Below, in pieces: positions 48,132 to 50,839 of a stretch of DNA of 64,000 nucleotides. The stretch lies in NCBI RefSeq assembly GCF_000293785.1, contig NZ_AKZI01000008.1, positions 1-64,000 of the forward strand, read 5' to 3'. Position numbers and translations under genes: made by a program. The DNA is from Rhodovulum sp. PH10. Lineage in GTDB: Bacteria > Pseudomonadota > Alphaproteobacteria > Rhizobiales > Xanthobacteraceae. The notes beneath the pieces were generated by a model. That model ran no database searches. It was not told where the DNA came from and saw only the letters and a program-made list of their open reading frames with translations. How positions within the stretch are numbered: the stretch's first letter is position 1; each line of letters begins with the position of its first letter.

Positions 48132-48884
48132 TCAGCGCGTGATCACGAGCTTCTGGAAGTAGCCGCCGAAATACTGCCGGCGCGGCCATTCGCGCTCGGA
48201 CCACGGGGCCGGCATCCAGCTGGTCAGTGGCTTCTTCCACAGGTCGAGCGCGAACGGCTCGAGCACGGCGAGCAGCGGCTTGAACCAGTAGCGCCACGGG
48301 TGCCACCACTCGGGCTGCGCGAAGTCGATGATCACCACCGTGCCGCCCGGCTTCACCACCCGGAAGATCTCGGCGAGCGTGCGCTCGCGATACTCGTCCG
48401 GCTGCTCGTGGAACAGCAGATAGACGATCGCCCGGTCGTAGCTCTCGTCGGCCAAATTGAGGTCGGAGGCGTCCATGTTGAGGAGGCGCACCGGCGCGTC
48501 GGCCTTCAGCTTGCGGCGGGTGTTGCGCAGCTGCGCCGGCACGATGTCGATCACGTCGAGCCGGCCACCGCCGGCGGCGGCCCGCTCGGCGAGATGCGGC
48601 GTCAGGTCGCCATAGGCGCACGCCACCTGCAGCGTCTGGCCCGGCAGCGTCTCGCCCAGCTCGTCGAGCGCGGCATTGCGCAGCTTCGCGTAATTGCCCC
48701 ACAGGATGAAGTTGATGATCGGGTCGTGATCGAAAAAGCGGATCGCGTTCGGGTGGATGTAGGCCCACCAATAATGCCGCTGGAGATAACGCGGAATCGA
48801 GAGGGTGGGGGCCTTGGCGCTATCCACCGGCGAACCGGCCTCGGTTCGCGCCGGGGCCGGCGTACGTACTGCAGCAGTCGGCAT
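48132..48884 (-). CDS. RquA-like SAM-dependent enzyme, second paralogue
   Basis: A 250-residue class I SAM-dependent enzyme that is clearly related to the next gene upstream. It has HYWWAYIHPNAIRFF, ILWGNYAKLRNAALDELGE, the modified SAM loop LQVACAYGDLT instead of the usual DxGxGxG, LFHEQPDEY and LEPFALDLW. These are marks of RquA, which converts ubiquinone to rhodoquinone. It differs in the first loop (FFDHDPIINF against FERQWLANL) and in IVPAQLRNTRRKLKAD. It is 146 bp downstream of the other copy, so they may share a transcript. It may have a changed substrate or be a divergent duplicate. Confidence 0.75.
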   Translation of the reverse strand: MPTAAVRTPAPARTEAGSPVDSAKAPTLSIPRYLQRHYWWAYIHPNAIRFFDHDPIINFILWGNYAKLRNAALDELGETLPGQTLQVACAYGDLTPHLAERAAAGGGRLDVIDIVPAQLRNTRRKLKADAPVRLLNMDASDLNLADESYDRAIVYLLFHEQPDEYRERTLAEIFRVVKPGGTVVIIDFAQPEWWHPWRYWFKPLLAVLEPFALDLWKKPLTSWMPAPWSEREWPRRQYFGGYFQKLVITR

Positions 48885-49030
48885 CTTCGGTAACCTCGAA
48901 ACGGGCGGGGAGTCCCCCAGAAAATCCTGTCCCCTCACCTCGACCATCGCATCCGCCCCGACGCAACACCTTGATAAAAAGCAAGAGTCGGTTCCCGCAG
49001 GGCCGACGGGCAAAAATGGCGGATCGCCGC

Positions 49031-49768
49031 TCAACAGGCGAGAACGAGCTTTTGATAAAGGCCGCCGAAATACGAGCCGCGCGCCACCGGGCGGGCGCTC
49101 GTGGTCTCCGGGATCCAGGTGGTGATGTCGTCGCGCCACAGATCGAGCGCGAACGGTTCGAGCACGGCCAGCAGCGGCTGAAAAGTCCAGCGCAGCGGGT
49201 TCCACCAGCGCGGGCGCGCATAGTCGACGATGACCACGCGGCCGCCGGGCTTCACCACCCGCAAGGCCTCGGCGATGGTGCGGCGACGCCACTCGGTCGG
49301 CTGCTCGTGCAGCAGGAAGAACAGCACGACGCGGTCGTACGTGTCGTCCGGCAGCTCGAGCGCCGCCGAATCCATCTCGAGCAGGCGGGCCGGAGCGTCC
49401 GGCGCGAGCTTGCGGCGCAGATTGGCGAGCTGCACCGGCAGCACGTCGACGATGTCGAGGCTGCCGTCGCCGGCCGCGACCCGGTCGGCGAGGTGCGGTG
49501 TCAGGTCGCCATAGGCGCAGGCGATCTGCAGCGTGCGGCCGGGCAGCCGGTCGCCCAGCGCGTCGAGCGCGGCGTCGCGCAGCCGGCCGTAATTGCCCCA
49601 GAGAATCAGGTTGGCGAGCCATTGCCGCTCGAACACCTTGATGGCGTTCGGGTGCACATAGGCCCACCAGTAGTGGACATCGAGATAGCTCGGCACCGGC
49701 GGCGCCCCGAGCCCGAGCTCGCCGAGCTCGCCCCGTGGACCGTTCGACGCCGCAACCGCTCTATCCAT
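49031..49768 (-). CDS. rquA: Rhodoquinone biosynthesis enzyme RquA (probable)
   Basis: A 245-residue protein. The N-terminal SYLDVHYWWAYVHPNAI, the ERQWLANLILWGNYGRLRD stretch, LQIACAYGDLTPHL, VLPVQLANLRRKL and FFLLHEQPTE fit RquA as I remember it from Rhodospirillum rubrum. Motif I of ordinary methyltransferases (Asp-x-Gly-x-Gly) is replaced by ACAYGD, which goes with RquA's unusual use of SAM as amino donor. An AGGAG site lies 9 bases before the ATG at 49768. Rhodoquinone is used for fumarate reduction without oxygen. Of the two copies this one is closer to the known type. I have not been able to align it, so the specific call rests on motifs. Confidence 0.78.
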   Translation of the reverse strand: MDRAVAASNGPRGELGELGLGAPPVPSYLDVHYWWAYVHPNAIKVFERQWLANLILWGNYGRLRDAALDALGDRLPGRTLQIACAYGDLTPHLADRVAAGDGSLDIVDVLPVQLANLRRKLAPDAPARLLEMDSAALELPDDTYDRVVLFFLLHEQPTEWRRRTIAEALRVVKPGGRVVIVDYARPRWWNPLRWTFQPLLAVLEPFALDLWRDDITTWIPETTSARPVARGSYFGGLYQKLVLAC

Positions 49769-50107: not shown

Positions 50108-50839
50108 ATGAAAGCCTGCGATGTGATGACGAGCCGGGTCGTGTCGATCCGCCCCGAGGCGACCGTCGAGGAGGCGGTTCGACAAATGCTCGACAACCGC
50201 ATCAGCGGCCTGCCGGTGGTGGACGGCGAGGGCGACTTGGTGGGCATCGTCACCGAAGGCGACTTCCTGCGCCGCGCCGAGACCGGAACCTGCCGCAAGC
50301 GGCCGCGCTGGCTCGAGATCCTGATCGGCCCGAACAGCCTCGCCAAGGATTATGTGCGCTCGCACGGGCGCAAGGTGGAGGAGGTGATGACGCGCGACCC
50401 GGTCACCGTGACCGAGGACACCACGCTCGACGCGATCGTCTCGATCATGGAGCGGCGGCGGGTCAAGCGGGTGCCGGTGGTGCGCGGCCGCGAGGTGGTC
50501 GGCATCGTCAGCCGCGCGAATCTTCTGCACGCGCTCGCCAGCGTCAGCCGGGACATGCCGCCGGCGGCGGCCAGCGACGCCGACATCCGCCAGCGTGTGC
50601 TCGACGAGCTGGCCGGCCAGCCATGGGCGCCGGTCGCCCTGGTCGACGTGGTGGTCAAGGACGGCGTGGTGGAGCTGTGGGGCAGCATCACCGAATCGAA
50701 GCAGGCGGCGGCGATGAAGGTGTGCGCCGAGAACGTGCCCGGCGTGAAGGACGTGGTGAGCCACCTGTCGTGGATCGAGCCGATGTCCGGCCTCGTCATC
50801 AGCGACAACACCGAGCACGGGCCGCGCAGCGGGTCGTGA
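50108..50839 (+). CDS. CBS domain pair plus BON domain protein
   Basis: A 243-residue cytoplasmic protein. Two CBS motifs (residues 1-60, MKACDVMTSRVVSIRPEATV; and 93-150, KVEEVMTRDPVTVTEDTTLDAI with GIVSRANLL) form one nucleotide-binding Bateman module. A BON domain follows (about 160-225: VVVKDGVVELWGSITESKQ). CBS-BON proteins are common in rhizobia and probably sense adenine nucleotides; the target is unknown. The ATG at 50108 follows a GGAGGA ribosome site and is preferred over an earlier GTG/ATG. Confidence 0.9.
   Translation: MKACDVMTSRVVSIRPEATVEEAVRQMLDNRISGLPVVDGEGDLVGIVTEGDFLRRAETGTCRKRPRWLEILIGPNSLAKDYVRSHGRKVEEVMTRDPVTVTEDTTLDAIVSIMERRRVKRVPVVRGREVVGIVSRANLLHALASVSRDMPPAAASDADIRQRVLDELAGQPWAPVALVDVVVKDGVVELWGSITESKQAAAMKVCAENVPGVKDVVSHLSWIEPMSGLVISDNTEHGPRSGS

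Follow-up and report, generated by a model that had tools for sequence, protein, structure and literature searches.

In the genus Rhodoplanes, two adjacent genes encode one canonical and one remodelled protein of the RquA family, and the pair is conserved across the genus. The pair was studied in a window of 64,000 nucleotides, the whole stretch of DNA that was analysed, which comes from a genome of 4.8 Mb placed in Rhodoplanes by its genus mates. Both genes lie on the same strand with intact reading frames and a gap of 146 bases between them, and their products are 58% identical (Table 1). The upstream gene, copy B, encodes the motifs HYWWAYVHPNAIKVFERQWLANL, CAYGD, FFLLHEQP and LEPFALDLW, and the downstream gene, copy A, encodes HYWWAYIHPNAIRFFDHDPIINF, CAYGD, YLLFHEQP and LEPFALDLW. 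A search of the same genome with copy A recovers no further RquA, the next five matches reaching 20–35 bits. The first-pass annotation had described two adjacent RquA-like genes in tandem on one strand, and this description is borne out by the open frames, the curated family model, family trees and conservation in the genus. The preferred reading, held with about even confidence from sequence comparison, is that copy B would be the standard ubiquinone-to-rhodoquinone enzyme and copy A a specialised rhodoquinone-forming isozyme, perhaps separately expressed. Copy A is an RquA-family protein that probably acts on a quinone; any finer function proposed for it below is one that we infer.

Table 1. 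Positions of the two rquA genes, their distinguishing motifs and the putative regulatory site between them (window coordinates).
Feature	Position	Strand	Remarks
rquA copy A (downstream gene)	48132..48884	minus	250 aa, diverged RquA-family protein; NF038261 281.7 bits
rquA copy B (upstream gene)	49031..49768	minus	245 aa, canonical RquA-family protein; NF038261 292.7 bits
RquA-type motif I of copy A, LQVACAYGDLT	48600..48632	minus	Q kept; Ala at position 7, Val in most relatives
RquA-type motif I of copy B, LQIACAYGDLT	49499..49531	minus	sequence comparison
Copy A DHDPII, residues 52-57	48714..48731	minus	ERxW at this place in 47/58 relatives and 5/5 copy-B proteins
Copy B ERQWLA	49613..49630	minus	canonical form of the loop that is DHDPII in copy A
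Copy A YLLFHE, residues 155-160	48405..48422	minus	FFLLHE in 55/58 relatives and 5/5 copy-B proteins
Copy B FFLLHE	49304..49321	minus	canonical form of the motif that is YLLFHE in copy A
TTG-N8-CAA imperfect palindrome, CRP/FNR-family-like (putative)	48971..48984		between the copies, ~87 bases before the copy A ATG

Rhodoquinone (RQ) is an electron carrier used without oxygen. In Rhodospirillum rubrum its synthesis is reported to require rquA (PMC6529003), and the purified R. rubrum RquA is described as converting ubiquinone to rhodoquinone when supplied with SAM, Mn2+ and a reductant (PMC9814641). According to published work, this enzyme transfers the alpha-amino group of SAM to ubiquinone; oxygen was required in vitro, a role presumed to fall to a different oxidant in vivo (PMC9814641). 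A published table lists Q-10 and RQ-10 for Rhodoplanes elegans, and Q-10 and 'R-10' for R. tepidamans (PMC12470966). Membership of the RquA family alone is no proof of activity, because one rquA of Desulfobacterota origin is reported to have yielded no RQ in E. coli (PMC13386864).

Family membership was judged with the RquA equivalog, the curated NCBIfam model NF038261, whose cut-off is 175 bits. Both copies score above it (Table 1), and on the UbiE/MenG models they reach 20–54 bits against cut-offs of 158–420. A chance match to the RquA family is excluded, and the model scores rule out membership of UbiE/COQ5, in line with the original assignment. In a tree that holds five weak, very long-branched homologues from the same genome and is built without a verified UbiE, the two copies are separated from these homologues with a support of 94; on this point the model scores are the stronger evidence. 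Sequence searches of solved structures return two remote methyltransferases only and no RquA. The AlphaFold models have a mean pLDDT of 90.1 for copy A and 91.6 for copy B, and the best solved match of the copy A model is yeast Coq5 with SAM (4obw; E 7e-12, TM 0.62).

In motif I of both proteins, glutamine (Q86 in copy A, Q81 in copy B) occupies the position of the acidic residue, which is described as an RquA feature (PMC7813818). The same source gives valine at motif I position 7 as a feature for RquA identification. This position is alanine in both window copies and in all five copy-A proteins, and valine in two of the five copy-B proteins; the 58 relatives have 51 Val, 6 Ala and 1 Cys. Since copies with alanine pass the curated model, this valine is treated as common and not as defining. 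The SAM aspartates are D113/D138 in copy A and D108/D133 in copy B, and their spacing of 25 equals that of D118/D143 in R. rubrum, a correspondence drawn from the motif and the equal spacing with the R. rubrum protein standing outside the alignment. In E. coli, R. rubrum RquA is reported to form no RQ8 once both D118 and D143 are changed (PMC9814641).

The pair is a property of the genus. The genomes compared were that of the window, R. elegans (G001), R. serenus (G002), the metagenome-assembled genomes (MAGs) Rhodoplanes sp. Cfx2-03 (G003) and G004, and R. tepidamans (G005). All six carry rquA, and the tandem pair occurs in each of the five with a completeness above 90%, among them the window's own. 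G004, a MAG of 58% completeness, shows a single copy followed by CstA, with neither copy A nor a gamma-glutamyltransferase gene in between. The neighbourhood comparison in Rhodoplanes that had been proposed at the outset confirms that the pair recurs with its flanking genes kept: a gamma-glutamyltransferase gene and a CBS-BON gene flank it at loci L034, L035, L036 and L038 as they do in the window. The CBS-BON domain gene (window 50108-50839) is transcribed away from copy B and adjoins the pair in four other Rhodoplanes.

Both genes are under purifying selection, copy A more strongly. For copy A, the NG86 dN/dS ratio is 0.08–0.12 among the four other genomes with the pair and 0.19–0.30 against the window; the corresponding values for copy B are 0.15–0.29 and 0.26–0.34. 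The single G004 gene compared with copy B gives 0.22–0.36. A pseudogene is unlikely, since the frames are open and selection is purifying. Across the five genomes, the two copies are 58–65% identical to each other, and this divergence, together with their recurrence in five assemblies, rules out a recent redundant duplication or an assembly artefact. Simple redundancy or gene dosage, in which the locus would encode two equivalent rhodoquinone synthases, draws on the shared family, the shared locus and the purifying selection on both copies, but it has to accommodate an identity of just 58–65% and copy-specific motifs fixed in each of the five genomes, and we regard it as improbable. The sequence evidence favours a specialised copy A over a redundant one.

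To place the pair in the wider family, NF038261 was searched in partly overlapping sets of 391, 397, 385 and 398 genomes (E <=1e-40 for the first set, <=1e-20 for the others). Matches, not all of them above the cut-off, occur in 126 distinct genomes, nine with two full-length matches and 117 without two. Besides the five Rhodoplanes, the nine comprise G041, in which the genes are in tandem, and G396, G821 and G1323, in which they lie on different contigs, G1323 having a second copy below the cut-off. The copies of G396 (L115, L127) and those of G821 (L134, L154) sit on different branches in a tree of 91 rows. A single rquA in G482 is split over two frames (L126/L128, G482:C214:5532-6172) and may represent a pseudogene or a sequencing error. 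Plasmid copies of RquA are absent at E <=1e-15.

This distribution bears on the idea that the two proteins form a heteromer, one subunit being catalytic and the other structural or regulatory. The adjacency of the genes on one strand and their joint presence in all five Rhodoplanes genomes over 90% complete would suit such a complex. However, G004 has one copy, 117 of the 126 matching genomes lack two, and purified R. rubrum RquA is described as active without other proteins (PMC9814641). In copy A itself, both SAM aspartates are intact, as is the HE of its second motif, so it does not look dead. On this evidence a heteromer is distinctly improbable.

The history of the pair was addressed with trees of chosen rows: a quick one of 91 rows, a careful one of 43 and a third of 57. 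Copy A forms a clade with a support of 100, and copy B with the G004 gene forms another (96 in the quick tree, 98/96 in the careful tree). The grouping of copy A with copy B and G004 receives 89 in the quick tree and 53/65 in the careful tree, and is absent from the third. AU tests reject none of seven other groupings (p 0.07–0.22). The stem branch of copy A is long (0.38 in the quick tree, 0.56 in the careful one), and the tips are short except that of the window. Outside its own clade, the top identity of copy A is common to copy-B proteins and to L023, a single-copy gene from the same family. The two copies may have separated before the genus arose, G004 having lost one, or copy A may have arisen inside the genus and evolved fast. 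The first reading of a duplicated rhodoquinone step stands insofar as there are two tandem RquA-family genes; copy A may have derived from copy B by duplication inside the genus, a grouping that the three trees support unevenly.

The departures of copy A from the canonical form are few and concentrated in two motifs. They were counted in a pool of 63 proteins, namely the 58 closest RquA proteins and the five copy-B proteins, after 2 of 161 rows with under 200 residues had been dropped, and at the 61 columns whose conservation reaches 93% or more. Of these columns, 0–1 are altered in copy B and 5–6 in copy A. Five departures are identical in all five copy-A proteins: R53H, W55P, F155Y, F156L and L158F, at positions where the conserved state is found in 61, 60, 62, 62 and 61 of the 63, respectively. 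The window's copy A has one additional departure, Y243F. As a result, the prevailing ERxW loop reads DHxP and the prevailing FFLLHE reads YLLFHE in 5/5 copy-A proteins (Table 1). Some single relatives have as many departures or more (12 in L140, 10 in L042, nine in the diverged G041 copy and six in L045), so the number by itself is not extreme; L042 likewise has DHxP. What is unusual in copy A is that all five species share a single set of departures, clustered in two motifs. The conserved columns uphold the earlier impression that the upstream copy is closer to the known type, although the bit scores differ little. Similarly, the difference that had been pointed out in the loop after HP is confirmed as DHxP, but the one in the stretch after the SAM loop is weaker, and the marked second difference is YLLFHE.

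In the AlphaFold models, the DHxP loop lies at the junction of helix 45-51 and helix 54-60, and YLLFHE starts at the final residue of strand 149-155 (copy A numbering). In class I methyltransferases, N-terminal helices and strand-end elements of this sort are turned towards the substrate side of the pocket that binds SAM. From the predicted secondary structure and this general knowledge of the fold, the changed motifs of copy A are expected to line the active-site pocket.

The DHxP loop is also met far from Rhodoplanes. A set of 56 distant RquA-like proteins (L057-L112) was assembled, 55 from a scan that lists the best 80 of 108 relatives, plus one other; this selection and the use of HYWWAY in the search pattern make it a biased sample, in which DHxP is present in 50 of the 56 and asparagine replaces the second SAM aspartate in 49. 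Most of these proteins belong to Gallionellaceae, Zetaproteobacteria and Gammaproteobacteria, MAGs included, and a few to Rhodospirillales and Nitrosomonadales; among the best 80 of 108 relatives they are 33–43% identical to the query. Three of them score 162, 171 and 186 bits on NF038261, on either side of the cut-off. Most of them share DHxP with copy A, and most differ from it in the second SAM aspartate; HYWWAY is common to both as well but belonged to the search pattern. The DHxP proteins with their prevailing asparagine may constitute a separate subfamily. The neighbourhoods of 12 DHxP loci, surveyed with Pfam over 56 of 72 flanking ORFs, have no family that occurs in more than two members.

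Descent of copy A from this group is not favoured. The two main groups of relatives were divided at 265 bits with a profile from both window proteins, and in the quick and third trees copy A sits with the other group, outside the DHxP members placed there. Because of this position and because only a short patch agrees, DHxP is read as probable convergence, and the recurrence of this loop in proteins that otherwise differ may point to a functional switch. No organism out of 182 is reported to carry both RquA groups of an earlier classification (PMC5953543). On the score groups used here, which may differ from those of PMC5953543, both copies fall in the same one, and a pairing of one gene from each of the published groups was set aside.

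A different product is a further alternative. Copy A could make another aminoquinone, either from another precursor, such as a demethylated or hydroxylated ubiquinone intermediate, or by amination at the other ring position to give iso-rhodoquinone. Its common departures affect rarely varied positions in elements predicted to lie near the pocket, its long stem was followed by slow evolution except in the window's copy, and its loop recurs in the biased distant sample (50 of 56, nearly all from the best 80 of 108 relatives). Yet copy A exceeds the RquA equivalog cut-off by more than 100 bits, the RquA literature, as far as accessible, mentions no second enzymatic aminoquinone, and iso-RQ is mentioned as a product of a non-enzymatic reaction (PMC9814641). 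We regard this alternative as rather unlikely. A bolder version, which we consider speculative and unlikely, is that copy A would be a neofunctionalised RquA for a second aminated quinone or an oxidant suited to anoxia; Rhodoplanes would then possess two SAM-dependent quinone-amination activities, and DHxP would mark a specificity class convergent with the distant Gallionellaceae and Zetaproteobacteria proteins.

Separate expression of copy A, as the isozyme reading has it, may be reflected between the genes. A TTG-N8-CAA site, chosen post hoc, occurs at the same aligned place before copy A in 5/5 Rhodoplanes; over the 500 bases that precede the HYWWAY codon in copy B, all five genomes lack such a site. 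The whole window contains five such sites against 3.65 expected, so that about 0.01 would be expected within a stretch as short as the gap. The gap also contains a weak terminator-like sequence that overlaps the site. The FNR consensus is TTGAT-N4-ATCAA, from which the site deviates by one mismatch in the window, two in L034 and three in the other three genomes. FNR control of copy A is doubtful: the TTG-N8-CAA core is conserved, but the fuller consensus is not. A separate promoter for copy A in the gap is weakly suggested by these sequences. Upstream of copy B, a GTGTGCTATGCG box is identical in 5/5 genomes. Two U32-family proteins are also encoded side by side in the window's genome; we take them to be UbiU/UbiV of oxygen-independent ubiquinone synthesis, and their region contains one FNR-like site with two mismatches, where 0.41 are expected. 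RQ is reported to co-occur mostly with the oxygen-independent ubiquinone pathway, in 73 of 84 genomes (PMC11707229).

In mechanistic terms, the isozyme reading would run as follows. Copy B would act as an ordinary RquA, transferring the alpha-amino group of SAM to ubiquinone with Mn2+ and giving rhodoquinone. Copy A would be a long-separated paralogue in which two near-invariant motifs were altered and then retained, the N-terminal helices exchanging ERxW for DHxP, and FFLLHE giving way to YLLFHE where strand 149-155 ends. It would most likely be tuned to another condition, be it oxygen level, oxidant, or quinol versus quinone form, and would perhaps be transcribed from its own promoter in the intergenic gap. 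If this is true, bacterial rhodoquinone synthesis can rest on two diverged enzymes. RquA performs a rare amino transfer from SAM, and here a natural pair differs at few near-invariant residues in a genus with cultured species listed with rhodoquinone. The pair thereby offers a direct handle on the residues that set oxidant, substrate or regiochemistry.

Multiple rquA genes are otherwise reported from Spirostomum and other heterotrich ciliates, as RquA1, RquA2 and RquA3 (PMC7813818). Those organisms likewise have two or three paralogues each, which fall into two groups by conserved residues; unlike Rhodoplanes they are eukaryotes, and the accessible part of that source contains no bacterial tandem pair. 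The parts of the rhodoquinone and rquA literature that were examined contain no such bacterial pair either, and report multiple genes only in ciliates. The closest bacterial counterpart is the G041 pair (L022, G041:C7:23621-25251), from another genus of the same family, with two same-strand genes over the NF038261 cut-off whose matched stretches lie 314 bases apart. In contrast to Rhodoplanes, its upstream copy is the diverged one, with nine departures (F51W, C89A, L158M and others), and keeps ERxW. Copy-by-copy orthology of this pair with copies A and B is unsupported by the trees (AU p 0.07–0.14, no formal rejection).

With the UbiE/COQ5 C-methyltransferases, the two copies share the class I fold, as the Coq5 match of copy A illustrates, but they fall far under the UbiE model cut-offs and have an altered motif I. 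With the R. rubrum-type RquA defined by NF038261, they share the passed curated score, the motif I glutamine, both SAM aspartates and a Coq5-like predicted fold. The Rhodoplanes locus differs from that type in having two adjacent copies, in the alanine in motif I of both, and in the DHxP and YLLFHE motifs of copy A.
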